Assembly: GCF_020991085.1 (NCBI RefSeq)
Contig: NZ_CP087719.1
Location: forward strand, 4,112,001-4,176,000
Direction of reading: 5' to 3'
Source of the DNA: Roseomonas sp. OT10
Lineage (GTDB): Bacteria; Pseudomonadota; Alphaproteobacteria; Acetobacterales; Acetobacteraceae
DNA: 64,000 bases
Within the stretch, counting starts at the first letter, position 1, and every line of letters begins with the position of its first letter. Below, one piece after another: positions 1 through 58,715 of this stretch. Under the pieces are notes generated by a model. That model was not told where the DNA came from. It saw only the letters and a list, made by a program, of their open reading frames with translations, and ran no database searches. The position numbers and the translations under genes are program-made.

Positions 1-170
1 GACGTCAGCGAATGCTGCGGCCATACCCGCCGAGGAGCATGGCTCCTCGGCGCCTCGACCCCGTCGCAGTCATCCGCGCGGCAGCACTGATCGGGTCCAG
101 GGCCCGCAGGGTCCTGGCGGAGTGGGGGTATCGGGGGCGAGGCAGAGCCTTGCCCCCGGGCCACGAGCGC
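1..170 (+). repeat. structured interspersed repeat, copy 1 (partial)
   Basis: Partial copy of the repeat family, cut by the window edge. Strand is the proposed sense strand (see findings). Visible are hairpin H4 at 29-51 (10-bp stem GCCGAGGAGC/GCTCCTCGGC, loop ATG), H5 at 97-117 (CCAGGGCCC/GGGTCCTGG) and H6 at 132-158 (CGGGGGC/GCCCCCG outer stem). It ends about 50 bp before the stop codon of the minus-strand regulator. The H1-H3 part would lie to the left of the window. No credible gene is present in 1-217. Confidence 0.85.
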
Positions 171-217
171 CGAGGCCACTCATCGACCCCGGGCCGCCAA
201 TCCGGAGTGCGGCGGGA

Positions 218-1627
218 TCAGCGTTCCCGTCCCGGCTCCGGCGTCCGGAAACGGTAGGGCGCCGAGCCTGCCACGGCCGGATCGAGGGCGAGTCGGTGCT
301 CCAGCGGCGGGAAGGCGCGGCTGCGGCATTCGGCGCGGTCGCAGAGGCGGCAGGACAGGCCGATCCCCACCCGCGCCCGGTCCAGGTCGAGGCCGTCGGC
401 GTAGACCACCTCCTCCGCGCGGCCGATCTCGCAGCCCAGGGCGACGACGTGGACGGGCACCGGCTCGCCCCAGCGCGCAGCGCGGCCCTCCACGGTGCGG
501 GCGATGGTGAGGAAGGCGGCGCCGTCCGGCAGCTCCACCGGCTGCACCCGCAGCACGCCGGGCGTCGAGAAGGCGCCGTGCACCATCCAGCGCGGGCAGG
601 AGCCGCCGAAGCGCGCGAAGGGGAAGCCCGCCGCGCTGAAGCGCTTGCCGACGTTGCCGGCGGGATCGACGTGCAGGAAGAAGAACGGCACCCCGCGCGC
701 GCCGTCGCGTTGCAGCGTGGTGAGGCGCTGGCAGGCCTGCTCGAAGGAGACGCCGAAGCGCGCCGCCAGCCGGTCGAGGTCGTGGCGCAGCGCGGCGGCC
801 GCCTCGCGGTAGCGTTCATAGGGCATCAGCAGCGCGGCGGCGGCGTAGTTCAGCAGGCCGATGCGGATCAGGCTGCCCGCCTCCTGGGTGCTGGGCGCCG
901 CGGCGGCGACGATGCCCTCCACCGCGTCGCGCGCCTCGATCAGCATGAGCTGGAAGGCCATGTGGAAGCCGCGGCTTTCGCGCGGCAGCTCCTCCGACAG
1001 GTCCAGCCGGCGCGAGGCAGGGTCGTAGCGGCGCAGCGTGCCCTCGGTGGGGCCGACCATGATGGACAGGCCGTGCCGGCCGCGCAGCCGCTCCGCGATG
1101 GCGTGGTTCAGCTCGGCCGGGGCGTCGGGCAGCTCGCGCCCGATCGCCTCCGCCGCCTCCTCCAGCGCGGGGAAGTGGTTGGCGCGGTCGTGGAAGAAGT
1201 CGCGCGTCTCCTCCGTCGGCAGCAGCAGCTTGCGCCCGGAGGGCAGCGCCAGCCCGCCCGCATCCTCCCGCGCCACGCGCCAGGCGCGGTAGAGCGCGAG
1301 CATCGCCTTGGCCGCCGTCGGCGCGCCCTGGGCCAGCGTCGCCACCTCCGCCTCCGGCACGGCGTCGAGGCCGAGGAGGGGGTCGCGCAGCACCTCGCGC
1401 AGCCCCGTCTCCACCTGTCGCTCCCGCGCGCCGGAGAGGGCGGTGAGGTCCACCTGGAACACCTCCGCCAGCTTGAGCAGCAGGGAGGCGGTGACCGGCC
1501 GCTGGTCGTGCTCGATCAGGTTCAGGTAGCTGGCCGAGATGCCCAGCCGCGAGGCCAGGGCCTGCTGCGTCCGGGACCGTTCCTGCCGCAGGCGGCGGAC
1601 GGTGGGGCCGATGAGGGTGCGGGCCAT
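218..1627 (-). CDS. XRE-family short-chain acyl-CoA regulator (ScfR/RamB type)
   Basis: A 469-aa DNA-binding regulator. Residues about 8-62 form a Cro/C1 helix-turn-helix (TQQALASRLGISASYLNLIE). The middle is an IrrE/M78-like domain in which the HExxH zinc motif is replaced (FHMAFQLMLIEA), so no peptidase activity is expected. The C-terminal part carries a cysteine group (CRLCDRAEC) typical of the DUF2083 region. This is the architecture of RamB, MccR and PccR, which sense short-chain acyl-CoAs and control glyoxylate, methylcitrate or propionyl-CoA genes. It is divergent from aceA across 141 bp of repeated motifs, so it probably regulates aceA and itself. A possible sigma-70-like promoter places its transcript start only a few bases before the ATG. 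Family assignment is strong; the actual ligand is inferred. Confidence 0.9.
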   Translation of the reverse strand: MARTLIGPTVRRLRQERSRTQQALASRLGISASYLNLIEHDQRPVTASLLLKLAEVFQVDLTALSGARERQVETGLREVLRDPLLGLDAVPEAEVATLAQGAPTAAKAMLALYRAWRVAREDAGGLALPSGRKLLLPTEETRDFFHDRANHFPALEEAAEAIGRELPDAPAELNHAIAERLRGRHGLSIMVGPTEGTLRRYDPASRRLDLSEELPRESRGFHMAFQLMLIEARDAVEGIVAAAAPSTQEAGSLIRIGLLNYAAAALLMPYERYREAAAALRHDLDRLAARFGVSFEQACQRLTTLQRDGARGVPFFFLHVDPAGNVGKRFSAAGFPFARFGGSCPRWMVHGAFSTPGVLRVQPVELPDGAAFLTIARTVEGRAARWGEPVPVHVVALGCEIGRAEEVVYADGLDLDRARVGIGLSCRLCDRAECRSRAFPPLEHRLALDPAVAGSAPYRFRTPEPGRER

Positions 1628-1636
1628 GATTTACAG

Positions 1637-1666
1637 GATTTACGGCTTTACAGAAACGACCGTCAA
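1637..1666 (-). promoter_or_regulatory. candidate promoter of the regulator, near-leaderless
   Basis: On the minus strand a -35 TTGACG (1666-1661) is followed after 18 bp by a -10 TAAATC (1642-1637). Initiation would fall near 1630, about 3 bases before the ATG at 1627, giving a leaderless or nearly leaderless mRNA. Three TTTAC direct repeats (1630-1634, 1639-1643, 1647-1651) overlap the -10 region and could be autoregulatory half-sites. Confidence 0.45.
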
Positions 1667-1678
1667 TCGGGCTACCGG

Positions 1679-1719
1679 TTTGCGAGGTTTCACCGGCTTT
1701 GCGGGCTGAACTTTTGCGG
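1679..1719. promoter_or_regulatory. TTTGCG direct repeats upstream of aceA (RamB-like boxes)
   Basis: Three copies of TTTGC followed by G (1679-1683, 1698-1702, 1713-1717; the last is within AACTTTTGCGG) lie between the divergent regulator and aceA. Known RamB boxes in corynebacteria centre on an AACTTTGCAAA-like sequence, so these are candidate operators for the neighbouring regulator. The sites are seen; their use is inferred. Confidence 0.45.
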
Positions 1720-1768
1720 TGCGATGTGAATTATTGACCCAGCGAACGACGCTGCTGGAGACGACGCC

Positions 1769-3127
<1,359 letters not shown>

Positions 3128-3158
3128 TCCCCCCGAAGCCACGAAAGGAGCAGACACC

Positions 3159-3365: not shown

Positions 3366-3387
3366 ACCCTTCCACGAGGATCAGCGA

Positions 3388-3533: not shown

Positions 3534-3722
3534 ATGGATACGCCCATCGCCCCCCTCCTCTGGGCCGATCACGCACGGCGGGAGCCGGAGGCGCTGCTGC
3601 GCATGATCGCGCATCTGGAGCGCTGCTGCCTGGAGATGGGCGCGGAGGACGCCGCGGATCGCCTCGCCGAAGCCGCGGCCGCGCTGGCGCAGGAGAGCCT
3701 GGAGCGTCGACTGGCCGCATGA
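3534..3722 (+). CDS. small helical hypothetical protein
   Basis: A 62-aa frame starting at MDTPIAPLLWADHARREPEA and rich in Ala, Leu, Glu and Arg, apparently mostly helical, with two adjacent cysteines (ERCCLEMG). No signal peptide or known domain is recognised. A longer frame starts at 3462, but its first 24 residues are Pro/Arg-rich and look untranslated. The region before the ATG is C-rich without a clear ribosome site, which lowers confidence. A copy of the structured repeat begins about 30 bp after the stop. Confidence 0.45.
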   Translation: MDTPIAPLLWADHARREPEALLRMIAHLERCCLEMGAEDAADRLAEAAAALAQESLERRLAA

Positions 3723-3754
3723 TGCGGGCGGCGCGGTGCATCCCCCATTGGGGG

Positions 3755-4151
3755 CGTGGCACCCGTTCCCCGGGGGCAAGGCGCCGCCTCGCCCCCGTAC
3801 CCCCACTCCGCCAGGACCCTGTGGGCCCTGGACCCGATGGGCGCTGCCGCGCAGACGACTGCGACGGGGTCGATGCGCCGAGGAGCCATGCTCCTCGGCG
3901 GGACCGGCCTCCGCACTCGCTGACACCGTTGATGTTTCTTTCAGCGTCCCGCCTGTCCGCGTCCGTCAGGGTTCAGCCCGCAGGCTGACGGCAGCCGCGT
4001 AGAGCCAACTCCCAGCGGGGACCGGGGCCCGCTTGTGGCCCCGGCAGGGGAGGGTCTGGGACGGGGATCGACGCACGGCGTCGATGCCGCAGGCCGGCGT
4101 CCCCTCCCGGTCCCCCGCCCGAACACCACAGCACAACGGGTCAGGTCATCC
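3755..4151 (-). repeat. structured interspersed repeat, copy 2 (variant H1)
   Basis: About 400 bp, located between convergent genes; sense strand proposed as minus, reading away from the D-aminopeptidase stop 81 bp away. In plus coordinates: H6 3771-3797, H5 3811-3831, H4 3877-3899 (stem identical to other copies; loop CAT on plus), H3 3963-3991 (CCGTCAG/CTGACGG), H2 4022-4044 (CCGGGGCC/GGCCCCGG). H1 is altered: the usual GAGGGGAC/GTCCCCTC stem is expanded by an insert that holds its own inverted repeat, ATCGACGC/GCGTCGAT. The interval 3723-4232 holds no other feature. Confidence 0.85.
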
Positions 4152-4232
4152 CGTCGTCCGCATGGCTCGGCCCGGCATTCCAGCCGAGTTGCGGAACCGG
4201 AGCCCGCCGGGGGCGGGGGAGGCCGGTCCCCC

Positions 4233-5834
4233 CTACTCCCGCCGGTAGCGCATGCGCTTCACGCGGCCGCCGCTGGCCAGCAGTCCGGCGATGGTGCCGC
4301 CCTCGCGCTGCACCCGCACGTCGAGCCAGATGCGCCAGAGCGTACCGGGGGTGTGCACGCGGATCAGGTCGCCCTCGATCGCCTCCACCTCCCAGAGCGG
4401 GCCGACGGCGACCGGCCCGCGGGACTGCACCCAGGTTTTCCCGTCCTTCTCCAGCACCGTCCAGACGGCATCCGTCTCCTCGCTGCGATAGGTGCCGGCC
4501 AGCCCCTCGGGCAGCGCCGCGCCGGGCGGCACGCGGTGCCAGAGCCCCTTCACCCCCGCATCCTGTTCCACCTCCACCGCGTCGGGGCCGGCGGCGCGCA
4601 GGGTGAAGACGCTGCTGCTGCGCGGCGAGGCGAGGCGGCCATCCTCCGTCGCCTCCGCCACCACCATCATGCCGTTCAGCGTCAGCGTCGGCGCCCCGGC
4701 CTCGGTGAAGCCGATCTCCAGCGTCGTATCCGTCTCCGGGTCGCGGTAGCGCCCCTCGAGTCCCGCCAGCGCCGCGCGCTTCGGCAGGGCGGGCACGGGG
4801 TGGATGCCCGGCCGTCCGTCCAGCACGGCATCCAGGGCGCGGTGCGCCAGCAGGTTCGGGTCGATCGAGGCAAGGTTGGCGATGGCGATCACCGTCACCC
4901 CCTGTTCCGGCACGCGCAGGAACTCGGTGCGGTAGCCCGGCCAGAGCCCGCCATGGCTGACCGTGCGCAGCCCCCGGTAGGGCCGCACCACCAGGCCGCG
5001 GGCATAGCGGTTCTCCGTGCCGTTGGCGAAGGGGGTCTGCCGGTCCAGCCCGTCCAGCCAGGTGCCGCCGACGCGCCGGGTGGTGAAGTTGCGGTCCCAC
5101 AGCGCCAGATCCTGCACGGAGGAGACCAGCCCGCCCTCGCCATGCAGGGGGAAGGCGTGGGGGGCGCGGGACCAGCCGGTCGTGGCCTCGCCGAAATAGC
5201 CGGTGGCGAGGCCGGGGACGGCTTCCTGCACGCTCTCCGTCATGCGGGTGTCGCGCATGCCGAGCGGGGCGAAGATGCGCCGGTCGAGGAAGCCGCGCAG
5301 GCTCTCGCCGCTCACCCGCTCCACGATCAGCCCGAGCAGCAGGAAGTTCGAATTGCTGTAGAGGAAGCGCGTGCCGGGCGTGAAGTTCAGCGTCCGCTGG
5401 CGGCAGATGCCGGCCAGCAGGTCCTCGGGCCGGACGGGCGTGCCGAGATCGGCGCCGCCATGGCGCATGATCTCCAGCATGTCGCGGATGCCGGAGCTGT
5501 TGTGCATCAGCTGCGCCACGGTGATCCGGTCGGACAGCTCCGGCAGCTCGGGCAGGTGGCTCCGCGCCTCGTCCTCCAGCGAGAGCTTCCCCTCCTCCGC
5601 TAGCATCAGGATGGCGGCGCAGGTGAACTGCTTGGAGACGGAGGCGATGCGGAAGCACGTCCCCGGCCCGATCGGCACGCCGTGCTCGACGCTGGCCAGC
5701 CCCGCATGCCGCCGCACCGCCAGCTCCCCGTCCAGCACGATGCCCAGGGTGGCGCCCGGACCGGGCCGGGTCGCCCAGGGGGCGAGCAGCGCCTCCACGC
5801 GGCGCTCGATCAGGGTCAGGTCCAATCCGGTCAT
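4233..5834 (-). CDS. S12-family serine hydrolase, probable D-aminopeptidase
   Basis: A 533-aa serine hydrolase of the beta-lactamase/DD-peptidase fold. The nucleophile motif is SVSK (Ser65-Lys68), the second motif YSN (159-161) and the third SHGG near residue 285. After the catalytic domain come about 200 residues of beta-rich sequence. This three-domain layout and the length match Ochrobactrum D-aminopeptidase (about 520 aa, catalytic Ser62/Lys65), which removes N-terminal D-residues from peptides. No signal peptide is visible, so it is probably cytoplasmic. It is the last gene of the peptide ABC transporter operon, 35 bp after the second ATPase gene, which supports a role in processing imported peptides with D-residues. 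A carboxylesterase or other S12 activity remains possible. Confidence 0.8.
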   Translation of the reverse strand: MTGLDLTLIERRVEALLAPWATRPGPGATLGIVLDGELAVRRHAGLASVEHGVPIGPGTCFRIASVSKQFTCAAILMLAEEGKLSLEDEARSHLPELPELSDRITVAQLMHNSSGIRDMLEIMRHGGADLGTPVRPEDLLAGICRQRTLNFTPGTRFLYSNSNFLLLGLIVERVSGESLRGFLDRRIFAPLGMRDTRMTESVQEAVPGLATGYFGEATTGWSRAPHAFPLHGEGGLVSSVQDLALWDRNFTTRRVGGTWLDGLDRQTPFANGTENRYARGLVVRPYRGLRTVSHGGLWPGYRTEFLRVPEQGVTVIAIANLASIDPNLLAHRALDAVLDGRPGIHPVPALPKRAALAGLEGRYRDPETDTTLEIGFTEAGAPTLTLNGMMVVAEATEDGRLASPRSSSVFTLRAAGPDAVEVEQDAGVKGLWHRVPPGAALPEGLAGTYRSEETDAVWTVLEKDGKTWVQSRGPVAVGPLWEVEAIEGDLIRVHTPGTLWRIWLDVRVQREGGTIAGLLASGGRVKRMRYRRE

Positions 5835-5869: not shown

Positions 5870-6892
5870 TCAGGCGGCCTGCGCCGCCCAGCAGGCGGCA
5901 CCATGCCCCCCGCCGAGGTCGAGCAGCGTCGGCTCGGCCTCGGCGCAGCGCGGCATGGCGATGGGGCAGCGGGAGCGGAAGCGGCAGCCGCTGGGCAGGG
6001 CGGCGGGGTCGGGCGGCTCGCCCAGCGGCGGCGGCGCCACGCGGCGCGCCGGATCGGCCGAGGGCACGGCGTCGAGCAGCGCGCGGGTATAGGGGTGCTG
6101 CGGCCGCTCGTAGAGGGCGGCGCGCGACGCCAGCTCCACGATGCGGCCGTAGTACATCACCGCCACCCGGTCGGCCATGTGCTCGACCACGGCGAGGTTG
6201 TGGGAGATGAAGACCATCCCCAGGCCGCGCTCCGCCTGGACGTCCTTCAGCAGGTTGAGGATCTGCGCCTGCACGGAGACATCCAGCGCGGAGACCGGCT
6301 CGTCGCAGACCAGCAGCCGCGGCTCCAGCACCAGGGCGCGGGCGATGCCGACGCGCTGGCGCTGCCCGCCGGAGAATTCGTGCGGGAAGCGGTCGGCGAA
6401 TTCCGGCCGCAGCCCGACCCGGCCGAGGATCCGCGCCACCACCGCCTCGCGCTCCGCCCGGGTGCCGATGCCGTGCAGGTCGAGCCCGAGACGCACCGAG
6501 GCCCCCACGGTCCGGCGCGGGTCCAGCGAGGCCACCGGGTCCTGGAAGACCAGCTGCGCATGGCGGCGCACCGCCTTCAGCCCGGCGGGCGGCAGGTCGA
6601 GGATGCGCTTCCCCTCGATCTCCACGCTCCCCTCGTCGGGCCGGCGCAGCGCGAGGAGCGTGCGGCCGAGAGTGGACTTGCCGCAGCCGGACTCGCCCAC
6701 CAGGCCGAGCGTCTCGCCCGCCGCCAGGGTCAGGTCCACGCCGTCCACCGCATGCACCCAGGCCACCGGGCGGCCCATCACCCCGGCCCGCACCGGGAAG
6801 CGCACGACCAGCCCGGCGGCGCGCAGCAGCGGCACGCGGGTGGCGGCGCGGCCGAGCCCCGCCGCCGGCAGCGCGTCCGGCATCACGACCAC
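5870..6892 (-). CDS. peptide ABC transporter ATPase (OppF/DppF type)
   Basis: A 340-aa ATPase energising peptide import. It has Walker A GESGCGKST, the Q-loop QLVFQDPVASLDPR, signature FSGGQRQR and Walker B LLVCDEPVSALD, followed by the oligopeptide-transporter C-terminal domain with a cysteine cluster (SGCRFRSRCPIAMPRC) that in this family binds an Fe-S cluster. The start overlaps the upstream ATPase gene by 10 bp; an internal Met at residue 4 is an alternative start. It pairs with the OppD-type ATPase to form a heterodimer. Opp, Dpp and related glutathione or nickel importers are not separable from this sequence. Confidence 0.92.
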   Translation of the reverse strand: MVVMPDALPAAGLGRAATRVPLLRAAGLVVRFPVRAGVMGRPVAWVHAVDGVDLTLAAGETLGLVGESGCGKSTLGRTLLALRRPDEGSVEIEGKRILDLPPAGLKAVRRHAQLVFQDPVASLDPRRTVGASVRLGLDLHGIGTRAEREAVVARILGRVGLRPEFADRFPHEFSGGQRQRVGIARALVLEPRLLVCDEPVSALDVSVQAQILNLLKDVQAERGLGMVFISHNLAVVEHMADRVAVMYYGRIVELASRAALYERPQHPYTRALLDAVPSADPARRVAPPPLGEPPDPAALPSGCRFRSRCPIAMPRCAEAEPTLLDLGGGHGAACWAAQAA

Positions 6893-7902
6893 CCCGCCGG
6901 GGCGGGGGCCAGCTCCGGCGCCCCGGCCTGCAGCCAGCAGCGCCCCTCGTGCCCCGGTTGCGCCAGGAAGCGGGGCGGGGCCATGCCGTCGCAGCGGGCC
7001 GCCCCCGCCTGTGCCCGCCCGTCGCAGCGGGGGGCGAAGGCACAGCCGGGGATGCGGCGCGACAGGTCGGGGATGCCGCCGGGAATCTCCCGCAGGCGCG
7101 GCTGCACCGCGCCCATGACCGGGGCGGAGCGGAGCAGCCCGCGCGTGTAGGGATGCGCGGGGCTGCGGAGCAGCGGGCCCACCGGCGCGGTCTCCACCAC
7201 CCGGCCGGCGTACATTACGGCCACCCGGTCGGCCATCTGCGCGATCACCCCGATATCGTGCGTGACCAGGATCAGCGCCGTGCCGAGCGCGCGGCAGCGG
7301 TCGCGCAGCAAGGCCAGGATCTGGGCCTGCACCGTGACGTCGAGGGCCGTGGTCGGCTCGTCGGCGAGCAGCAGGCGCGGACGCAGCGCGAGCGCCACGG
7401 CGATCATCACGCGCTGGGCCTGCCCGCCGGAGATCTCATGCGGATAGGCACGCGCCTTCTGCTCGGGGGCGGGAATGCCGACCGAGCCGAGCAGCGACAC
7501 CGCCTCCCGCCAGGCATCGGTGCGGTTGCGGCCGCCGCGCAGACGTAGCGGCTCGGCGATCTGCGCCCCGATCCGCATCAGCGGGTCCAGGCTGGCCTTG
7601 GGCTGCTGGAAGATCATGGCGATGTCCCGGCCGCGCAGGTCGCGCAGGGCGCGGGCGCGCATCGCCAGCACGTCCTGCCCGTCGAACAGCACCTGCCCTT
7701 CCACGATGCGCCCCGGCGGCTCGATCAGCCGCAGCAGGGACAGCGCCAGCACCGTCTTGCCGCAGCCGGATTCACCGACCAGGCCGAGCACCTCGCCGCG
7801 GTGCACGGCCAGATCCACGCCGTTCACCGCGCGCACCGCCGCGGGTCCCTCGCCGAACTGCGTCCGCAGCCCGCGGACCTCCAGCAGGGGCGCCTCAGAC
7901 AT
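6883..7902 (-). CDS. peptide ABC transporter ATPase (OppD/DppD type)
   Basis: A 339-aa ATPase partner of the adjacent OppF-type protein. Walker A is GESGCGKTV, the signature ISGGQAQR and Walker B LLLADEPTTALD. The C-terminal region has the oligopeptide-transporter cysteine motif (GCAFAPRCDGR and a later ARCDG). The gene overlaps the upstream permease by 8 bp and the downstream ATPase by 10 bp, as expected for a translationally coupled operon. Confidence 0.93.
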   Translation of the reverse strand: MSEAPLLEVRGLRTQFGEGPAAVRAVNGVDLAVHRGEVLGLVGESGCGKTVLALSLLRLIEPPGRIVEGQVLFDGQDVLAMRARALRDLRGRDIAMIFQQPKASLDPLMRIGAQIAEPLRLRGGRNRTDAWREAVSLLGSVGIPAPEQKARAYPHEISGGQAQRVMIAVALALRPRLLLADEPTTALDVTVQAQILALLRDRCRALGTALILVTHDIGVIAQMADRVAVMYAGRVVETAPVGPLLRSPAHPYTRGLLRSAPVMGAVQPRLREIPGGIPDLSRRIPGCAFAPRCDGRAQAGAARCDGMAPPRFLAQPGHEGRCWLQAGAPELAPAPAGWS

Positions 7903-8785
7903 CGCGGGGGTCCAGCACGTCGCGCAGCCCGTTGCCGAGCAGGTTCATCGCGAAGATGGCGACGAAGATGGCCAGGCCCGGCGCGGCCACCTCCCACCAG
8001 GCGGTGAAGAGGAAGGAGCGGGAGTTCACCAGCATCGCCCCCCATTCCGGCGCGGGCGGCTGCGCCCCCAGGCCGAGGAAGGACAGCGCCGCCGCGGAGA
8101 GCGCCGCGATCGGCGTGGCGTAGGACATGTAGACGATCAGGGGCGAGATGGTGTTGGGCAGCACCGTGCCGAAGATGATCTGCGCCTCGCTGGCGCCGAG
8201 CGCCCGGGCCGCTTCCACGTACTCCTCCTGCTTCACCGTCAGGGCGACGGAGCGGATCAGCCGGGCATAGCCGGGGATGCCCGCGATCCCCACCGCCATC
8301 ATCGCGGTCCAAAGGCTGGGGCCCAGGATGGCGACGATGGCGAGCACCAGCAGGATGTAGGGGAAGGCGAGCAGCATGTCGGTGAAGCGCATGATCAGCG
8401 TATCCGCCAGCGGCGAGCCCGCCCCGGCCAGCAGGCCGAGCAGGATGCCGCAGCCCGCCGAGATGGAGGCCGCGATCAGGCAGATCAGCAGGAAGTAGCG
8501 CGTGCCGAAGACCAGCCGGCTGAGCAGGTCGCGCCCCACCTCGTCCGTGCCCAGCCAGTGCCCGGCGCTGGGCGGCTTCAGCCGGCCCAGCGTGTCCACC
8601 GCCAGCGGATCGTGGGGCGCGATCCAGGGCGCGAAGGCGGCGCAGACCAGGATGAGGAGCAGCACCCCGCCGCCGATCCGGGCCGAGGGGTTGCGCAGCA
8701 GCCGGCCGAGCACCCAGCGCCACCCGCCGCGGCGCCGTGCCGGCAGGGGGGCCGCGGCGGTCGGCGCCTCCGCGGTCAGGCTCAC
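7895..8785 (-). CDS. peptide ABC transporter permease (OppC/DppC type)
   Basis: A 296-aa inner-membrane permease. A Pro/Ala/Arg-rich cytoplasmic tail is followed by the OppC_N helix (residues about 35-55), the typical DLGRLKPPSAGHWLGTDEVG region, and a five-helix transmembrane domain containing the ATPase-contact segment EAARALGASEAQIIF. The chosen start is a GTG at 8785 that overlaps the stop of the upstream permease (GTGA), giving tight coupling. A longer open frame upstream lies antisense-like within the other permease and is not used. Confidence 0.92.
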   Translation of the reverse strand: MSLTAEAPTAAAPLPARRRGGWRWVLGRLLRNPSARIGGGVLLLILVCAAFAPWIAPHDPLAVDTLGRLKPPSAGHWLGTDEVGRDLLSRLVFGTRYFLLICLIAASISAGCGILLGLLAGAGSPLADTLIMRFTDMLLAFPYILLVLAIVAILGPSLWTAMMAVGIAGIPGYARLIRSVALTVKQEEYVEAARALGASEAQIIFGTVLPNTISPLIVYMSYATPIAALSAAALSFLGLGAQPPAPEWGAMLVNSRSFLFTAWWEVAAPGLAIFVAIFAMNLLGNGLRDVLDPRDV

Positions 8786-15496: not shown

Positions 15497-16306
15497 ATGA
15501 GCGCAGCGAGCGGGGCGGATGCGAAGACCGCCGGCACGGTCCAGCGGGTGGTGCACCTCCTGCGCTTCCTGGCCGAAGCCGGACAGGAGGTGACGATCAA
15601 GCAGACCGCCGACGCGCTCGGCCTGCCCATGAGCACGGTGCACCGCCTGCTGCATCTCCTCGGCAGCGAGGGCATGGTGCACCACGATCCTGCATCCCGT
15701 CGCTACCAGGTCGGCGTGGAGATGGCGCGGATCAGCTGGCTCATCGCGTCGAGCCGCACGCTGAAGGATGTGGCACGGCCCTTCATGCAGGCCATCGTCG
15801 ACCGCTGCAACGAGGCCTGCCTCTTCGTCGTTCATCTGCCCGCGACGCATCAGGTCAGCCTGCTGGAAGGCATCAACTCCTCCCACCCCCTGCGCTACGA
15901 GATGCAGCTCTACACCGCGCACAGCCTTCTCTGGGGCGCGACCGGACGCTCCATCCTCGCCTTTCTGCCGAAGGAGGAGCAGGCGGCGGCGCTGGCCCGC
16001 GGCGAACCCTCGCCGGGCACCGGCCGCCCGGCGCCGACCCTGGAGGACTTGCGCAAGGAGCTCCGCCCCTTCCTGGAGCGCGGCTATGTCACGTCGCGCG
16101 GGGAGAAGGTGGTCGGCGCCTTCGGCATGGGCGCACCCGTCTTCCGCGCCGACGGGCGGGTCATCGCCAGTCTCTGCCTCACCATCCCGCAGATGCGCGC
16201 CGAGGCGGTGGACGAGGCGCGACTCGCGAGCCTGCTCCGGCGGCAGGCCGACGCGCTGAGCCGCACACTGGGATTCCGCGGCACCTATCCGGGTGGCGCG
16301 ATCTGA
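15497..16306 (+). CDS. IclR-family transcriptional regulator
   Basis: A 269-aa regulator. The N-terminal winged helix-turn-helix spans about residues 15-75 (TIKQTADALGLPMSTVHRLL), and the C-terminal effector-binding domain spans about 90-260, with the usual GATGRSILAFLP and RGYVTSRGEKVVGAFGMGAPV segments. Such proteins bind palindromic operators and respond to small acids. The gene is preceded by a promoter with an embedded inverted repeat that also occurs in the MmgE/PrpD-Bug divergent interval, so it most likely controls that cluster and itself. Start chosen at the ATG at 15497; the ribosome site (GGGGAATCG) is modest. Confidence 0.92.
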   Translation: MSAASGADAKTAGTVQRVVHLLRFLAEAGQEVTIKQTADALGLPMSTVHRLLHLLGSEGMVHHDPASRRYQVGVEMARISWLIASSRTLKDVARPFMQAIVDRCNEACLFVVHLPATHQVSLLEGINSSHPLRYEMQLYTAHSLLWGATGRSILAFLPKEEQAAALARGEPSPGTGRPAPTLEDLRKELRPFLERGYVTSRGEKVVGAFGMGAPVFRADGRVIASLCLTIPQMRAEAVDEARLASLLRRQADALSRTLGFRGTYPGGAI

Positions 16307-16461
16307 GGGGGCAACCTCAATCCCTCCGCCTGGCGAAGCAGGTCGCGTCCCCCGGCACTAGGGGCGATGCCGCTTGCCCTTCCAAGCCCATGCTGGCCGC
16401 CGGCCCCCGCCACGGACGCCGCGACATGTGCGGCCGTGTGAGACGGACGGCGGGATGCCTT

Positions 16462-16836
16462 GATCCGTGCCGGCGTGGTGCCCGTTCCCCGGGGGGCAAG
16501 GCGCTGCCTCGCCCCCGTACCCCCACTCCGCCAGGACCCTGCGGGCCCTGGACCCGATCAGCGCTGCCGCGGGACAGTCTGCGACGGGGTCGATGCGCCG
16601 AGGAGCCATGCTCCTCGGCGGGTACGGCCTCAGCCCTCGCTGACGCCTTCTGAGCTTCTTCGGAGTCCCGCTTGTCCGCGCTCCGTCAGAGTTCAGCCCG
16701 CAGGCTGACGGCTGCCGCACAGCACCAAACTCCCAGCGGGGACCGGGGCCCGCTTGTGGCCCCGGCAGGGGAGGGTCTGGGAGGGGACAGCGTCCCCTCC
16801 CGGTCCACCGCCGGAACACCACAGATCAGGCCATCC
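16462..16836 (-). repeat. structured interspersed repeat, copy 3
   Basis: About 375 bp between convergent IclR and metW genes. Proposed sense strand is minus, beginning 107 bp after the metW stop. H4 lies at 16597-16619 with the invariant 10-bp stem and loop CAT (plus strand). H1 is GAGGGGAC-AGC-GTCCCCTC on plus. All six hairpins are present. The rest of 16307-16943 holds no recognised gene. Confidence 0.88.
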
Positions 16837-16943
16837 CGCCAGCATGACATACGACGCGGCGCCGCGAACCTGCGGCCCGCCCGGGTCACTGGCTGGCATC
16901 CGCCCTGGCAGGAGGTGGGTGCCTGGGGAGGGGCCGCGCCGGA

Positions 16944-17597
16944 TCAGCCTGCCGTGTCCGCCCGGCGCAGCACGAAGAGGGCCTGCTCGCCGAACAGGTT
17001 CGCCAGACGGACCCAGCTCCGCCAGGGCGCGCGCAGCCCGTGCTCGTCCACCGCCAGCCACTGCTCCACCACGTAGCCGTCCTTCTCGCACAGGGCGAAG
17101 AAGTCCAGGATGGTACAGGGGTGGATGTTGGGCGTCTCGTACCAGGGGCGGTTCCAGGTGTCCGTGTCCGGCATCCGGCCGGTGACCAGCAAGCGCCAGC
17201 GCATCTGCCAATGGCCGAAATTCGGGAAGGACACCACCGCGCGGGTGCCGATGCGCAGCATCTGCCGCAGCACCTCGCGCGGCTTCTCCACCGCCTGGAA
17301 GGTGCGGGACAGCACCACGTAGTCGAAGGCCTGGTCCGGGTAGAAGGCCAGGTCGGTGTCGGCGTCGCCATGGATCACCGCCAGCCCGTTGCCCACGGCC
17401 CGGGCGACCTCGGCCATGTCGATCTCGATGCCCCGCGCATCCGCGCCCTTCTCGCGCGTCAGGTGGTCGAGCAGCGCGCCGTCGCCGCAGCCGATGTCGA
17501 GCACGCGGGCGCCCTGCGGGATCATCTCGGCGATCAGCCGCAGGTCCAGCCGCATGTTCTTCGCGACATAGCGCACCGGCTGCGCGGTATCGGGCAC
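16944..17597 (-). CDS. metW: methionine biosynthesis protein MetW
   Basis: A 217-aa SAM-methyltransferase-fold protein of the MetW family. The glycine-rich motif I is VLDIGCGDGALLDHL (residues about 32-46), and the family-specific SFPNFGHWQMRWRLL and NRPWYETPNIH segments follow. MetW partners MetX (homoserine acetyltransferase) in methionine synthesis and is normally encoded directly after metX; here no metX is adjacent, and trpS lies upstream with a 92-bp gap. Start is the ATG at 17597; a downstream Met (MRLDLRL) is a possible alternative. Confidence 0.9.
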   Translation of the reverse strand: MPDTAQPVRYVAKNMRLDLRLIAEMIPQGARVLDIGCGDGALLDHLTREKGADARGIEIDMAEVARAVGNGLAVIHGDADTDLAFYPDQAFDYVVLSRTFQAVEKPREVLRQMLRIGTRAVVSFPNFGHWQMRWRLLVTGRMPDTDTWNRPWYETPNIHPCTILDFFALCEKDGYVVEQWLAVDEHGLRAPWRSWVRLANLFGEQALFVLRRADTAG

Positions 17598-20513: not shown

Positions 20514-20806
20514 CGTCCGTATCCCGTCCAGACTGGGGGTGGGGCTGGTCCGGGCCCACGGCCGATTCCCCCGGCCGGGGACCCAGGCCAGCCTGGGTCC
20601 GGAAGCCGGCCCTGCCACGGGTCCGCCGTTCCACCCCCGCTCTACGCCCGCCCCCGCGGCTGTGCACCGGAGCATCCCGCCGGGCTGTCATCGGCATGAC
20701 ACATGACCGGGAATGGCAACCGCCATGAAAAAGGGGCGGAGGCCGAAGCCCCGCCCCCTCCCCGGCCCTGTCGGGCGCGGGTGTTACAAGGATGGCGCGA
20801 TGCGCC

Positions 20807-21189: not shown

Positions 21190-21200
21190 CGCCGTTGGTA

Positions 21201-43984: not shown

Positions 43985-44407
43985 GTGCTGAACCTGCTCA
44001 AGCTCTCCGTGGGCCCGCGCGACGTGGCCGAGCTGCGCCGCCTGCAAGCCGAGCGCCTGCGGGAGGGCGGCCGGCTGTTCCACCGCACCCGCGTCTTCCC
44101 GCGCCGCGCAGCGGAGCTGCTGGAAGGCGGCTCGATTTACTGGGTGGTCAGCGGCTTCCTGCAGGTCCGCCAGCGGCTGCACGCCATCGAGGAGGACACG
44201 AAGGACGGGCTGCCCTGCGCCGCGCTGATCCTCGACCCGGCCCTGGTCCCGGTGGAGATGCGGCCGGTGAAGCCGTTCCAGGGCTGGCGCTACCTCGCCG
44301 CCGAGGCCGCGCCGGCCGACCTGGCGCAGGACGCCGCCCCCGCCGAGGGGCTGGAAGCCCTGCCCCCCAGGCTCCGGCGCGAGCTGCGGTCGCTCGGCCT
44401 GCTCTGA
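43985..44407 (+). CDS. DUF1489 family protein
   Basis: A 140-aa cytoplasmic protein of the DUF1489 family, conserved mostly in alphaproteobacteria and of unknown function. Marks are [16 protein letters not shown] at the N terminus, the central [22 protein letters not shown] and the C-terminal PFQGWRYL. The GTG at 43985 is chosen because homologues begin at this LNLLKL segment; an ATG at 43949 would add 12 Arg-rich residues. Divergent from the chemoreceptor with about 110 bp between. Confidence 0.8.
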
Positions 44408-44436
44408 CGGCGCCGCGCCCCGCTACCCCCCCCCAC

Positions 44437-44490
44437 CGGGGCCACGAGCGGGGCCCGAACCCTGCTGGGGGTCTGGCTCCGTGTGCTGGG
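44437..44490 (+). repeat. degenerate partial copy of the structured repeat
   Basis: The segment beginning CCGGGGCCACGAGCGGGGCC and continuing into GAACCCTGCTGGGGGTCTGG corresponds to H2 and the following linker of the family (CCGGGGCCACAAGCGGGCCC, CCCCGCTGGG), in the same orientation as copy 5, which starts 26 bp further on. It lies directly after the DUF1489 stop. A run of nine C precedes it. Confidence 0.65.
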
Positions 44491-44515
44491 TGTCATACCG
44501 ACGGGTGGATAACCC

Positions 44516-44892
44516 GACCCGTCATGCTGTGGTGTTCCGGCGTCGGCACCGGGAGGGGACGCTGTCCCCTCCCAGACCCTCCCCTGCCGGGGCCACAAGC
44601 GGGCCCCGGACCCCGCTGGGAATTGGCTCTACAGGGCTGCCGTCAGCCTGCGGGCTGATCCCAGACGGAGCGCGGACAAGCGGGACTCTGGAATAGCTTT
44701 GAAGGCGTCAGTGAGTGCTGCGGCCGTGCCCGCCGAGGAGCCATGCTCCTCGGCGCTGTGACCCCGTGTCCGGCTGTCCCGCGGCAGCACTGATCGGGTC
44801 CAGGGCCCGCAGGGTCCTGGCGGAGTGGGGGTACGGGGGCGAGGCAGAGCCTTGCCCCCGGGCCACGGGCGCACCCCGCGCCGGCACGGATC
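44516..44892 (+). repeat. structured interspersed repeat, copy 5
   Basis: About 377 bp between convergent DUF1489 and membrane-protein genes. Proposed sense strand is plus, following the DUF1489 stop by 108 bp with a partial copy between. H1 GAGGGGAC-GCT-GTCCCCTC, H2 CCGGGGCC/GGCCCCGG, H3 with one mismatch, H4 at 44732-44754 with the invariant stem and loop CAT, H5 and H6 with one G-U pair each. Confidence 0.88.
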
Positions 44893-44976
44893 GAGGTATC
44901 CCGCCGTCCGTATCGGCCTGCGAGCCGAACCCCGGGGAGAATGCGGACAGGCGGGGTGCCGGAGCGAGGCCCTGGG

Positions 44977-45351
44977 TCAGGCCTTCGCCGGGCGGGCGCG
45001 GGCGGAGGCGCCGATCCAGGCCCAGGCGGCGAGGGCGGCGCCGAGCATGCCCCAGGTGGCGTTGTAGTTCAGCACGGCGATGATCCCGAGGGCGACGGCG
45101 GCGACTCGCAAGGCCCAGGGCGCGCCGAGGAAGGACCACAGCCCGAGGGCCAGGGCCGCGCCGCCCCAGAGCTGCCAGTGCTGCAGCCAGAGCAGGGCGG
45201 CGCGCGGGGTGCAGGCCGCGGGGGCCCGGGCCAGGTCGAGGCAGGCCGCCCCCCATTCGCGCGGCTCCACGTAGAGGTGGCGGTAGAGGGCCATTGCCCC
45301 CAACGCCAGCACCACGATTCCCACGCCCTGCCAGTCCCGTCGTGTCAGCAT
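44977..45351 (-). CDS. small integral membrane protein
   Basis: A 124-aa protein with about four hydrophobic segments (GVGIVVLALGAMALY; LQHWQLWGGAALALGLWSF; LRVAAVALGIIAVLNY; MLGAALAAWAWIG) and a Cys-containing loop (CLDLARAPAAC) that may be disulfide-bonded in the periplasm. No family recognised. Start at MLTRRDWQG (45351). Divergent from the S49 peptidase by about 100 bp. Confidence 0.65.
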   Translation of the reverse strand: MLTRRDWQGVGIVVLALGAMALYRHLYVEPREWGAACLDLARAPAACTPRAALLWLQHWQLWGGAALALGLWSFLGAPWALRVAAVALGIIAVLNYNATWGMLGAALAAWAWIGASARARPAKA

Positions 45352-47480: not shown

Positions 47481-48179
47481 ATGCTGCGCGTCGCCGTCAT
47501 CGAGAACTCCCCCCTCGCGCCCCTCGGCCTGCTGGGGGAGGCCTTGGCGCGGCGCGGCGCGCGGCTCGACATCCTGCCCGGCCCGACGCTGGCCGATCAC
47601 GCGGCGGCGCTGGATTCGGCGGACTTCCTCGTTGGCCTGGGCTCGCCCAAGGCGGTCTATGACGGCGACGACTGGATCCGCTGGCAGGTGGGCTACCTCG
47701 GCCGTGCGGTGGCGGCGGATCGCCCCTATCTCGGGATCTGCTTCGGCGCCCAGCTTCTCGCCGCCGCCATCGGCGGCCGCGTCGAGGCCACCGGCACCCT
47801 GCACGCCGGCTGGACGGAGATCGTGGACGGCGCGGCCCCGGGCGGCGCGGCCTCCGTCTGGCGCGGCCCCTGGATGCGCTGGCACGGCGACCACGTCCGC
47901 CTGCCGCCCGGTGCCGAGGTGCTGGCCCGCGCCGACGACACCATCCAGGCCTTCCAGTTCCGCCGCGCCGTCGGGCTGCAATTCCACCCGGAGGCCAATG
48001 CCGGCTGCATCGCCGACTGGATCGCGATGACACCGCCCGAGCGACTGCGCGGCGTGGACACGCAGGCCCAACTCGCCCTGACCCGTGCGCGCGAAGTGTC
48101 CCATGCCCCTGCCCGCGAGGCGCTGCTGGACGAGGTGCTGAACCGCTGCGGCGTCACCGGCCTCGCACGGGCTGCCTGA
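47481..48179 (+). CDS. class I glutamine amidotransferase-like protein
   Basis: A 232-aa GATase-1 protein similar to stand-alone GMP-synthase-like amidotransferases. The nucleophile Cys87 is in LGICFGAQLLA and the His169/Glu171 pair in LQFHPEAN, so the catalytic triad is complete. The acceptor domain is missing, and the partner or substrate (for example gamma-glutamyl compounds) is unknown. It starts 8 bp after mtnA, indicating an operon. A repeat copy begins 23 bp after the stop. Confidence 0.85.
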   Translation: MLRVAVIENSPLAPLGLLGEALARRGARLDILPGPTLADHAAALDSADFLVGLGSPKAVYDGDDWIRWQVGYLGRAVAADRPYLGICFGAQLLAAAIGGRVEATGTLHAGWTEIVDGAAPGGAASVWRGPWMRWHGDHVRLPPGAEVLARADDTIQAFQFRRAVGLQFHPEANAGCIADWIAMTPPERLRGVDTQAQLALTRAREVSHAPAREALLDEVLNRCGVTGLARAA

Positions 48180-48202
48180 TACCGGCAGCAGCAGGGCCTG
48201 TT

Positions 48203-48570
48203 GCGCTGTGGTGTTCCGGCGGTGGACCGGGAGGGGACGCCGTCCCCTCCCAGACCCTCCCCTGCCGGGGCCACAAGCGGGCCCCGGTCCCCGCTGGGAG
48301 TCTGGTGCTTCATGGCCGCCGTCAGCTGCGGGCTGAACCCTGACGGAGCGCGGACAGGCGGGACTCCGAAAAAGGTTCAGAGCGCGTCAGCGAGAACGGA
48401 CACCGTACCCGCCGAGGAGCAATGCTCCTCGGCGCCTCGACCCAGTGTCCGGCTGACCCGCGGCAGCGTTCATCGGGTCCAGGGCCCGCAGGGTCCTGGC
48501 GGAGTGGGGGTATCGGGGGCGAGGCAGAGCCTTGCCCCCGGGCCACGGGCGCCCCCCGCACCGGCGCATC
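48203..48570 (+). repeat. structured interspersed repeat, copy 6
   Basis: About 368 bp, starting 23 bp after the amidotransferase stop on the proposed sense strand and ending before the terminator of the convergent Tim44-like gene. H1 GAGGGGAC-GCC-GTCCCCTC, H3 perfect (CCGTCAG/CTGACGG), H4 at 48411-48433 with the invariant stem and loop AAT. Confidence 0.88.
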
Positions 48571-48611
48571 ACGCCGCCCGTATGAGCCGGGCCCTAGGGC
48601 GGCCGGACAAG

Positions 48612-48666: not shown

Positions 48667-49341
48667 TCAGGCCGAGCGGGTGCCCACCAGCTTCCAGGTC
48701 GGATCGCTGCTGTGCAGGTCGCGCTGGAAGGTCCAGAGATCGTTCAGCTCCGTCACGGCATCGGTTCCGGATACCGGCGTGCCGTCGGCGTTGGAGGTCA
48801 TGTTCACCTGGTCGGAGACGAAGCGCACGGTGACATCGGCGGTGCTGCCGCGCAGGTCCGCCGCTTCGATCGACGCCTCGTGGAGCGCGCGGATCTCCGT
48901 GCGCTGCGTCTGGTGCGCCGCCTCGCGGGCGTTCAGCGCCTGCTCGAACCCGGCCCAGGTCTCGTCGCCCAGCAGGTCGCGCAACACGGTGCGGTCGCCA
49001 CGCGCGAAGGCCTCCACGATCATGCGGAAGGCTCCCTCCGCGCCGCCCAGGAAGGCGCGCGGGTCGAAGCCCGGATCCTCGGCACGGATGCGGGCGAGCG
49101 CCTGTCCGGCCGGGCTGCGTGCATCGGGCACGGCGTAGCGGGTGCCGGCGGTGGCCGCGGCAGGGGGCAGCTCCGCCGCCTCGCCCTCGATGGCGCGGGG
49201 CTTGTAGCCTGGGGTTGCCTGGGCCTCCGGCTGCCGTTCGAAGCCCGTGCGCTTGCCCAGGACGGAGCGCAGCCGCAGCACCAGGAATGCCGCGACCATC
49301 CCGAACAGAATCAGATCTAGGGGAAAGCCGCCCTGCATCAT
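48667..49341 (-). CDS. Tim44-like domain protein (TimA type)
   Basis: A 224-aa membrane-anchored protein. Residues about 6-27 form an N-terminal helix (LDLILFGMVAAFLVLRLRSV), then a low-complexity linker, and from about 80 to the end a Tim44 domain (FLGGAEGAFRMIVEAFARGD, and the C-terminal LWTFQRDLHSSDPTWKLVGT). Bacterial TimA proteins are inner-membrane relatives of the mitochondrial import motor component; role not established. The ATG at 49341 has an AGAGGAGAG ribosome site. Confidence 0.9.
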   Translation of the reverse strand: MMQGGFPLDLILFGMVAAFLVLRLRSVLGKRTGFERQPEAQATPGYKPRAIEGEAAELPPAAATAGTRYAVPDARSPAGQALARIRAEDPGFDPRAFLGGAEGAFRMIVEAFARGDRTVLRDLLGDETWAGFEQALNAREAAHQTQRTEIRALHEASIEAADLRGSTADVTVRFVSDQVNMTSNADGTPVSGTDAVTELNDLWTFQRDLHSSDPTWKLVGTRSA

Positions 49342-51714: not shown

Positions 51715-51719
51715 CCGCC

Positions 51720-55505: not shown

Positions 55506-55584
55506 GCCGGACGCCGCCCGGGCTTCGGGCAGGCAGGCGCGCCGGCGCCGTTCGAGCGTCTCGCCATGACCGTCTCCGCTGCCC

Positions 55585-57019: not shown

Positions 57020-57103
57020 GTAATCCCGGACCGCGCAGGATTGAAGCGCGCCCTCATCCGGGCTTGAGTGCCGCCCGCTCATGAGTGGGGGAGACTCGCC
57101 TGC

Positions 57104-57397: not shown

Positions 57398-57402
57398 CGC
57401 GC

Positions 57403-57816
57403 ATGGCGGGCTGGCTGGTCAAGAGCGAGCCCGACGCCTTCTCCTGGCAGCAGCAGGTGGCCAACGGCGTCGAGCCCTGGACGGGGGTGCGCAACGCCGC
57501 CGCCGCCAACAACCTGCGCGCCATGCAGGCGGGCGACCGGGCCTTCTTCTACCATTCCAACATCGGCAAGGAGATCGTGGGCGTCGTCGAGGTGGTCCGC
57601 GAGGCCTATCCCGACCCCACCGACGAGAGCGGCCGCTGGGTCTGCGTCGACGTCCGTGCCGTGGGCCCGGTGCCGCGCCCGGTGACGCTGGCCGCGATCA
57701 AGGCGGAGCCGCGCCTGGCCGGGCTCGCCCTGGTGCGGCTCTCGCGCCTGTCCGTCTCGCCCGTCTCGGACGAGCACTGGGCGATCCTGGCTGGGATGGC
57801 CGGCTGGACGGGATGA
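57403..57816 (+). CDS. EVE domain protein
   Basis: A 137-aa PUA-like EVE domain protein. Characteristic features are WLVKSEPDAFSW at the N terminus, WTGVRNAAAANNLRAM, and FFYHSNIGKEIVGVVEV. EVE domains bind modified bases in nucleic acids and in eukaryotic thymocyte nuclear protein 1; the bacterial target is not known. Starts 5 bp after yciI and overlaps the Rieske start. Confidence 0.93.
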   Translation: MAGWLVKSEPDAFSWQQQVANGVEPWTGVRNAAAANNLRAMQAGDRAFFYHSNIGKEIVGVVEVVREAYPDPTDESGRWVCVDVRAVGPVPRPVTLAAIKAEPRLAGLALVRLSRLSVSPVSDEHWAILAGMAGWTG

Positions 57817-58160
57817 GCGACGAACGCCGCCTCTGCCGCCTGGACGAGCTGGCCGAGGGGGCCGCCCGTGGCTTCCCCCCCGCCCCCGGCGGCTTCACCG
57901 GGCTGGTGGCGGTGCGGCGGGACGGCGAGGTCCGGGTCTACGTGAACGCCTGCCCGCATCTGGGCCTGCCGCTGGAGGCACTGCCAGACCGCTTCCTGGA
58001 CGGCCGTGGCGAGCATCTGGTCTGCGCCGCGCATGGCGCCCGCTTCCGCGTGGAGGACGGGTTCTGCGTCGCCGGCCCCTGCGCCGGGGATGAGCTGGAG
58101 GCGGTGCCCGTACGGATTGCCGGGGGCGACGTGCTCGTCCCGGCCGACGCCGGTCTCTGA
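57813..58160 (+). CDS. small Rieske 2Fe-2S protein
   Basis: A 115-aa stand-alone Rieske ferredoxin. The cluster ligands are Cys47/His49 (CPHLG) and Cys71/His74 (CAAHGARF), with the usual 22-residue separation between boxes. It lacks a signal peptide or membrane anchor, so it is cytoplasmic, unlike bc1 Rieske proteins. The ATG overlaps the end of the EVE gene. Partner unknown. Confidence 0.88.
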   Translation: MSDERRLCRLDELAEGAARGFPPAPGGFTGLVAVRRDGEVRVYVNACPHLGLPLEALPDRFLDGRGEHLVCAAHGARFRVEDGFCVAGPCAGDELEAVPVRIAGGDVLVPADAGL

Positions 58161-58210
58161 CGAGGACGGCCCGATTCGCCGGCCTGTGGCGGATGTCGCG
58201 CCTGCGGCCC

Positions 58211-58291
58211 GGAGGAAGGTCTGCCCCCTCCCCAGCCTCCCTGTCCGCCAGGATCCAGGGCGCCCTGGAACCGGCCCGGACCGCCGCAACC
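58211..58291 (-). repeat. degenerate partial copy of the structured repeat
   Basis: The stretch GGAAGGTCTGCC through CCGCCAGGATCCAGGG aligns with the H6-H5 region of the family in the same orientation as copy 7. H5 has drifted, but a perfect 16-bp palindrome TCCAGGGCGCCCTGGA (58254-58269) retains its pairing. It directly precedes copy 7. Confidence 0.55.
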
Positions 58292-58337
58292 GACCAGCGG
58301 AGCGCGGCCCCGCCTGATACGGTCGGTGCGAAGCCTT

Positions 58338-58715
58338 GATCCGTACCGGCGTGGTGCCCGTTCCCCGGGGGCAAGGCGCTGCCTCGCCCCCGATACCCCC
58401 ACTCCGCCAGGACCCTGCGGGCCCTGGACCCGATGGGCGCTGCCGCGGGACAGCCTGATACGGGGTCAAGGCGCCGAGGAGCATGGCTCCTCGGCGGGAC
58501 CGGCCGCAGCACTCGCTGACGCCTTCAAAACTATTCTGGAGTCCCGCTTGTCCGCGCTCCGTCTGGGATCAGCCCGCAGGCTGACGACAGCCGCACAGCA
58601 CCAGACTCCCAGCGGGGACCGGGGCCCGCTTGTGGCCCCGGCCGGGGAGGGTCTGGGAGGGGACGGCGTCCCCTCCCGGTCCGCCGCCCGAACACCACAG
58701 CACGACGGGTCATCC
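58338..58715 (-). repeat. structured interspersed repeat, copy 7
   Basis: About 378 bp between the Rieske gene and the Pro/His-rich gene. Proposed sense strand is minus, but here no minus gene ends immediately upstream (lldR ends 425 bp away), so this copy is the exception to the 3'-UTR placement. H4 at 58473-58495 with the invariant stem and loop ATG (plus strand). H1 loop is GGC on plus. H3 has one mismatch. The rest of 58161-58850 holds no recognised gene. Confidence 0.88.

Follow-up and report, generated by a model that had tools for sequence, protein, structure and literature searches.

The window analysed here is a stretch of 64,000 nucleotides from Roseomonas sp. OT10 (contig NZ_CP087719.1, positions 4,112,001 to 4,176,000; G000:C1:4112001-4176000, where G000 denotes the source genome of 5.69 Mb on three contigs). 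It carries seven copies, named Z, A, B, C, E, F, and G, of an intergenic repeat that a first-pass annotation had described as about 370-400 bp long with six conserved hairpins, H1 to H6, in a fixed order. A repeat search and a seven-copy alignment recovered all seven copies. The hairpins were located in that order in all six whole copies, both orientations occur as claimed (A, B, C, and G on the plus strand; Z, E, and F on the minus strand), and no called gene lies inside any copy. The family is thus as described except for its length, as the copies extend over about 410-450 bp. The observation of the repeat family is confirmed and extended below. There is good support for its being a miniature inverted-repeat transposable element (MITE) in the source genome that carries a structured core of older origin, whereas what it does for the host is inferred.

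On the plus strand, copy A (3720-4165) has a left terminal inverted repeat (TIR) with a TGA slot at 3720-3738 and a right TIR at 4145-4165. Its hairpins are H6 3772-3796, H5 3811-3831, H4 3876-3900, H3 3963-3991, H2 4022-4044, and H1 at about 4058-4108, with the boundaries of H1 and of the right end read by hand. The right slot reads TGG, a decayed target duplication. A gene was called to the right (4233-5834, minus strand), and the left side has a short open reading frame, absent from the called genes, that ends at TGA 3720-3722. H1 of copy A is enlarged by a nested inserted hairpin (ATCGACGCACGGCGTCGAT), a variant that recurs in L054:16587-16758 and L072:2-296. Copy B (16439-16850) has its left TIR at 16439-16457 and a poor right TIR region with seven mismatches at 16830-16850. 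It comprises H6 16492-16516, H5 16531-16551, H4 16596-16620, H3 16683-16711, H2 16743-16765, and H1 16779-16801, and lies between the convergent genes 15497-16306 (+) and 16944-17597 (-). Copy C (20784-21203) is bounded by a perfect TTA duplication (20784-20786 and 21201-21203), the right triplet being the stop codon (TAA) of gene 21201-22451 (-). Its hairpins are H6 20836-20860, H5 20875-20895, H4 20940-20964, H3 21028-21056, H2 21088-21110, and H1 21124-21146, and it is the sole whole copy of the window located between tandem genes. Copy G (58315-58729) has terminal repeats at 58315-58333 and 58709-58729 with slots TGA and CGA, hairpins H6 58367-58391, H5 58407-58427, H4 58472-58496, H3 58559-58587, H2 58619-58641, and H1 58655-58677, and the convergent neighbours 57813-58160 (+) and 59141-59959 (-).

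On the minus strand, copy Z (1-174) is cut by the left edge of the window and retains H4 (28-52), H5 (97-117), and H6 (133-157); its left terminal repeat is unrecognisable, with eight mismatches. Copy E (44493-44915) has terminal repeats at 44493-44513 and 44897-44915 with slots TCA and TCG. Its hairpins H1 44551-44573, H2 44587-44609, H3 44640-44668, H4 44731-44755, H5 44800-44820, and H6 44835-44859 are located between the convergent genes 43985-44407 (+) and 44977-45294 (-). Copy F (48177-48585) shows a perfect TGA duplication (48177-48179 and 48583-48585), the left TGA being the stop codon of gene 47481-48179 (+), which converges with 48667-49341 (-); the hairpins are H1 48229-48251, H2 48265-48287, H3 48319-48346, H4 48410-48434, H5 48479-48499, and H6 48515-48539. 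Two weak matches to the family, perhaps old remnants, adjoin these copies: a fragment of 21.6 bits next to copy E (44425-44482, minus strand) and a match of 21.4 bits to the left part of the repeat just before copy G (58156-58273, plus strand).

In the whole source genome the core motif occurs 213 times with at most three mismatches, 101 times on the plus and 112 times on the minus strand, with none for a reversed control, corresponding to about 200 copies of a non-coding repeat of some 420 bases. Together with the length of the window copies and their lack of genes, this is the short, non-coding, high-copy profile of a MITE. Copies scoring over 300 bits are referred to as full; among the weaker ones (60-300 bits) are copies that have been truncated and copies of a second class, which on inspection by eye is without these terminal repeats. 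The two smaller replicons, of which 340 of 360 kb were examined, hold two weaker copies (201 and 143 bits) and no full copy. Both are located on the 286-kb replicon C2 (L176:4735-5088 and 8263-8585), although C2 is crowded with transposase genes. Among the first 100 exact core matches listed on contig C1 the spread is uneven, with 47 below 1.08 Mb, 28 at 1.08-3.0 Mb, 25 at 3.0-3.65 Mb, and none below 0.21 Mb. The H6-hairpin motif was found 215 times in G000, 31 times in G012, 20 times in G003, and 14 times in G004, and was absent from 11 other genomes of the genus. Used as a DNA query, copy B gave some match in 14 of 60 relatives, G000 counted, and those outside G000 were mostly short or about 70% identical. 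No plasmid or phage homologues were found in PLSDB or INPHARED, and no description of the family was found in the open-access literature, subscription papers lying outside this coverage.

When 59 copies were aligned with their flanks, conservation began and ended sharply. The ends are imperfect TIRs of about 17 bp (left TACGGACGGCGGGATG, right, as reverse complement, TACCGACGGCGGGATGAC) with T-N-A in front. Both ends could be measured in 44 of the 59 copies; there the TNA triplets on the two sides were concordant in 29 (16 TCA, 12 TGA, and 1 TTA), discordant in 3, and decayed on one side in 12; a larger set yielded 33 concordant copies among the 53 of 73 with usable ends. Because the left and right triplets agree as direct and not as inverted copies, the 3-bp TNA is taken to be a target duplication. 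The two structural marks of a MITE, TIRs and a target site duplication, are therefore both present, supporting the non-autonomous element that the first-pass annotation had listed as one option. An excerpt of PMC12016507 gives a TNA preference and 3-bp repeats for the IS1031 group of the IS5 family of insertion sequences (IS), and the TNA duplications found here are those of a MITE of the IS5/IS1031 type. The flanks of one G000 copy match sites without the element in G012 and G004, although a base-for-base alignment across the junction is not obtained; in BLAST no pair of flanks bridged a junction, and G012 and G004 are not close relatives of G000.

A transposase with matching ends, as the earlier annotation had suggested looking for, was not found in the two families searched. 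Transposase loci gave single TIR matches alone, with up to 4/18 and 3/16-17 mismatches, scattered for example over L094, L099, and L104 (four mismatches) and L273 (three mismatches). A laxer scan with 5/16 mismatches produced chance pairs in most loci and was undiscriminating. The exact left-type TIR pattern has 18 sites in the whole genome, all of them ends of repeat copies (15 assigned from their coordinates and three by direct reading), and 3 of the 75 TIR-like sites in the genome stretches examined fall outside copies. The best of these, in L062, shows no transposase alongside. This lone site (L062:4423, minus strand) coincides precisely with the TGA stop codon of an ABC-transporter gene, is followed by no element, and is either a footprint or chance. 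An IS with 12 identical transposase matches in G000 has concordant TNA flanks in the four copies listed, but its ends, which we take to be IS1031-like, are others. Since no autonomous IS with the same ends was found, the repeat was not filed under a named IS. In L101, around 1191-1466 (G000:C1 near 1.034 Mb), an IS5-like element has apparently inserted into a repeat copy beside H4, with a flank reading gcgccgaggag.

The location at gene ends resembles that of repetitive extragenic palindromic (REP) sequences (compare the excerpt of PMC3733652), and mobilisation as a REP family or bacterial interspersed mosaic element (BIME) by a REP-associated tyrosine transposase (RAYT, a Y1 transposase) would be one way to explain it. 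We regard this as extremely improbable. The genome has no Y1_Tnp match in a search whose control was positive in 5 of 14 known genomes, and the repeat is therefore not a RAYT-REP system; moreover, the unit of about 420 bp is far larger than REP units of 20-40 bp, and terminal repeats with target duplication are present in the family. We know of no RAYT-REP system with such ends. In addition, CGTC repeats are given as missing in Acetobacteraceae in the excerpt of PMC3733652.

Where the copies lie relative to genes was analysed with genes called by codon usage (44 stretches, 782 genes, not checked against annotation), about half of the stretches having been chosen for holding copies and twenty being evenly placed. 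Of 61 full copies seen, 54 could be placed between two called genes: 46 between convergent genes, 8 between tandem genes, and none between divergent genes, on 120, 475, and 120 gene pairs, respectively (Fisher p 2e-31 for convergent). In the twenty evenly placed stretches the copies numbered 9, 2, and 0 on 45 convergent, 215 tandem, and 46 divergent pairs. Seven of the eight tandem full copies face with the gene. The weaker copies (16 seen, 12 placed) are all in tandem gaps, 9 of the 12 in the gene's direction, so that full and weak tandem copies together show the preferred orientation in 16 of 20 cases. In 26 of 32 concordant TGA/TCA copies (15/20 and 11/12) the duplicated triplet is the stop codon of a neighbour, and the single copy with a TTA duplication, copy C of the window, is at a stop codon as well (TAA). 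For comparison, 96 of 149 TGA/TCA sites (64%) are stop codons in 63 element-free convergent gaps with a median length of 49 bp. Stop-codon targeting as a special mechanism was demoted accordingly, the observed share being only slightly above this baseline (p 0.03).

The hairpins are the best conserved part of the repeat. In the 59 aligned copies, a set biased to similar ones, the mean share of the commonest base was 0.984 in stems, 0.911 in loops, 0.876 in linkers, and 0.813 in terminal repeats. Across four genomes the two arms of the H5 stem change in step (CCC-TGC-GGG, CGC-TGC-GCG, AACC-TGA-GGTT, AAAC-TGA-GTTT, and CAC-TGC-GTG). In 46 diverse sequences with an intact H4 stem, picked partly by structure, 82 stem cells were double-changed compared with 25.3 in shuffles, none of 500 being as high, and pairing dropped from 94% to below 49% when the structures were slid; the number of further pair types, 19 vs 17.8, was not above shuffles. 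A looser anchor allowed H4 to be framed in all 176 copies, in 171 of them as a 25-mer, and within these 171 each of its 11 pairs was canonical in 162-168. The outer five pairs are favoured by this anchor, but it imposes no condition on the inner six, which were canonical in 162-166 of 171. Pairs that covary beyond chance, as in structured RNAs, are thus present, and the family does not drift in the manner of neutral duplicates. Nor was a match found to any known REP or MITE family. The predicted RNA fold of copy B has z-scores of -4.15 on the plus and -4.39 on the minus strand and beats 100 of 100 shuffles on each.

On the other hand, the 1870 cells contain 12 G-U pairs and 18 A-C mismatches, so G-U is not the commoner of the two and neither strand stands out, as would be the case if both strands or the DNA were what matters. 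The loops of H4 occur as reverse-complement pairs: CAT 63/ATG 31, ATC 10/GAT 7, CAC 5/GTG 2, CAG 5/CTG 2, CGT 2/ACG 1, and ATT 2/AAT 1. These look as if palindromes had been flipped; within the window, such loops are seen for example at 28-52 and 44731-44755. If hairpins flip, template switching could yield perfect arms without selection and so mimic covariation.

Are the copies then exchanging sequence? Orthologous loci were compared in G003, G004, and G012, using two-flank pairs and hand-checked loci. The flanks are 91-97% identical in 15 of 17 comparisons and 73-75% in two. The orthologous elements themselves, compared 10 times at 8 loci, one of which supplied three of the comparisons, share only 77-85% of their bases in alignments of 126-298 bases. 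Ranked among the other genome's copies, the orthologues came at 22/24, 21/32, 23/32, 1/24, 2/24, 25/25, 17/24, 18/24, 10/24, and 1/24; in 7 of 10 comparisons they are no closer than paralogues, which indicates that copies have exchanged sequence in concerted evolution. The orientation is the same at all 8 orthologous loci, arguing for shared old insertions rather than repeated new ones. Partial deletion was also seen, as was presence or absence of copies between G012 and G004, the latter concerning copies without clear terminal repeats. In G000 a terminal repeat is clear at threshold in 69 of 86 copies vs 23 of 86 control stretches.

Much of this would be expected of a purely selfish MITE, surviving in convergent gaps because it does least harm there, with hairpins that serve transposition or are maintained by template switching and gene conversion and have no host role. 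The terminal repeats and TNA duplication fit it, as do the scrambled orthologues, the finding that G-U is no commoner than A-C, and the reverse-complement loops of H4, since palindrome flipping alone can create covariation. We nevertheless consider it unlikely, if the strongest of the competing explanations. Terminal repeats, the part most needed for transposition, are the least conserved; the common H4 loop TTG (15) has no CAA counterpart; tandem copies in the source genome have a preferred orientation; and the core is kept at gene ends in other Acetobacteraceae genera without these terminal repeats. An element acting at the DNA level, as a cruciform or protein-binding site that affects the supercoiling of the DNA between converging genes, as has been hypothesised for REP/BIME and gyrase, would account for the near-perfect Watson-Crick stems with so few G-U pairs and for the quasi-palindromic layout. 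Convergent genes are, moreover, where positive supercoils meet. The oriented tandem copies of the source genome and the 22 of 46 placed relatives that other genera hold in tandem gaps make such an element rather improbable.

The distribution of the core was examined with a covariance model of the three hairpins H6-H5-H4. It matched 34 of 150 genomes of the family Acetobacteraceae, in 25 of 102 genera, including the source genome and two others of its genus; none of 114 other genomes drawn from the whole class matched (115 scored, the source genome alone matching). Scoring was restricted to the 23-30 best candidates of each genome under strict filters, so the counts are lower bounds and the absences not strict. 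Among 49 matches in 15 genomes of 12 genera, with genes called by a caller trained on G000 and with L200 and L201 representing the same locus in two genomes, 24 are between convergent genes, 22 between tandem genes, none between divergent genes, and 3 at contig ends. For the 36 of 49 loci with readable anchors, which were selected by the structure model and are not independent, the inner H5 stem is paired in 136 of 145 cells (94%), compared with 55% on average and 68% at most after the 3' halves had been shuffled among loci. By eye, some relatives have a symmetrical array of five hairpins; L198 has A5 and T5 on either side of its central hairpin.

The novel structured RNA class that had been suggested is accordingly borne out in part: covariation is strong, about a quarter of the sampled Acetobacteraceae genera have the core, and Rfam 15 gave no match at the gathering score in the window or in six loci of relatives (for copy B, a miRNA match alone at 21.2 vs a cut-off of 58 bits). 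What the data do not favour is one RNA strand over both strands or DNA, with 12 G-U against 18 A-C. A structured RNA that acts in trans or senses a ligand, such as a small RNA or a riboswitch-like element, would share the covariation and the strong folding, but is very improbable given that divergent gaps hold none of 54 copies here and none of 46 elsewhere, that loops and linkers, where binding sites would be expected, are the more variable parts, and that Rfam has no match. No sigma-70-like site was seen at copy B, which is a weak test in such a genome.

The position of the repeat, its preserved stems, and its two-sidedness suggest that it acts at the 3' ends of the two messages that converge on it. 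A terminator element, also proposed in the first-pass annotation, agrees with the position (46 convergent, 8 tandem, 0 divergent) and not with the sequence: for the Roseomonas copies a classical intrinsic terminator was rejected, as no GC hairpin with a U-tract was found at copy B or in 43 element-bearing convergent gaps. In G000 as a whole, convergent gene ends have hardly any U-tract terminators, with 1 in 115 scanned gaps and 2 in 404 intragenic stretches. At one locus that has the element in G000, G012 and G004 are without it and have a small hairpin with A- and T-rich sides instead. In other genera a strict scan detected terminators in at least 2 of 49 loci, missing imperfect hairpins such as that of L198. 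The lack of a U-tract makes U-less or Rho-assisted termination and exonuclease blocking the likelier forms of action, and we infer one or both of these as the function. The repeat probably marks or protects the ends of converging messages.

The explanation we prefer, with roughly even confidence, is that each copy is a MITE of about 420 bp whose cargo is an older quasi-palindromic hairpin array acting at transcript 3' ends on both sides. An IS5/IS1031-type transposase, now lost or unrecognised, would have moved the copies in trans. Those landing between convergent genes would have persisted for two reasons: duplication of the stop codon leaves the gene undamaged, and the hairpins act on the messages, ending, blocking, or protecting both of them. 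They would do so by U-less or Rho-assisted termination and/or by stopping 3' exonucleases, in line with what has been hypothesised for REP/BIME repeats. Sequence would pass among copies through gene conversion and the correction of palindromes, so that whole stems are swapped for other, perfectly paired stems.

Several findings weigh against this explanation. No U-tract terminator was found at copy B, and such terminators occur in 0 of 43 element-bearing vs 1 of 72 element-free convergent gaps. The use of stop codons is barely above what short gaps offer (p 0.03), and with a per-gap mean of 78% hardly any excess is left. Tandem copies in other genera have no preferred orientation (10 same, 12 opposite), and three of the orthologue comparisons (ranks 1, 2, and 1) keep a memory of the locus. 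The terminal repeat is weak in relatives (13 vs 4 of 32 in G004, 10 vs 5 of 24 in G012, and 6 vs 4 of 19 in G003) and in other genera does not exceed the control (12 vs 10 of 48). Finally, there was no inverted TIR pair at any of the loci obtained for 30 of the 34 DDE_Tnp_1 (PF01609) matches or at any of the 26 DUF4096 (PF13340) loci, other DDE families not having been searched.

More tentatively, Acetobacteraceae may own an undescribed class of two-sided transcript-end elements, quasi-palindromic hairpin arrays that converging genes share and that concerted evolution by whole-stem replacement keeps structurally alike, which in this genome was captured by IS5/IS1031-type transposition and now serves about 200 gene ends. 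It would have spread by insertion at TNA sites, often stop codons, which the duplication restores. If true, the repeat would be a domesticated transposon shipping a ready-made 3' end. The family connects two subjects that are usually studied apart: MITEs, which are regarded as selfish, and the REP-like hairpins of gene ends, which are regarded as parts of the host. With it one can ask directly whether functional 3' ends are spread by a mobile element. The exchange of stems among orthologous copies is likewise a natural experiment on whether palindromes are kept up by RNA selection, DNA selection, or template switching. The function proposed would also label some two hundred intergenic stretches of the source genome, and many in relatives, that have no Rfam match.

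Apart from the repeat, window positions 6125-7443 contain two stretches, 72-74% identical and at a spacing of 1058, one in each of two adjacent genes with many paralogous matches, presumably ABC-transporter ATPase paralogues.

The high-copy intergenic location is shared with the Correia, ERIC, BOX, RUP, and SPRITE repeats, which we take to be of other length, sequence, and structure; we know of no convergent-gap preference among them as strong as the one described here. An excerpt of PMC10969869 gives over 120 copies for Correia and up to 711 for ERIC. REP/BIME sequences likewise lie mostly between unidirectional and convergent genes (PMC3733652, excerpt), but their units measure 20-40 bp in the same source, compared with about 420 bp here. 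The frequency of GT pairs in REP is taken there as support for an RNA role, whereas G-U is rare in the present family and the genome has no Y1 transposase. With MITEs of the IS5/IS1031 type the repeat has in common that it is a short non-coding element with terminal inverted repeats and a 3-bp TNA duplication. It differs in that no IS scanned shares its ends, that its interior consists of six strongly conserved hairpins, and that its core occurs in other genera without an excess of these ends. Compared with bidirectional intrinsic terminators, the Roseomonas copies tested are without a U-tract and form an array in place of a single hairpin, yet both place strong hairpins common to two converging genes, and the L198 relative even has the A5 and T5 flanks.

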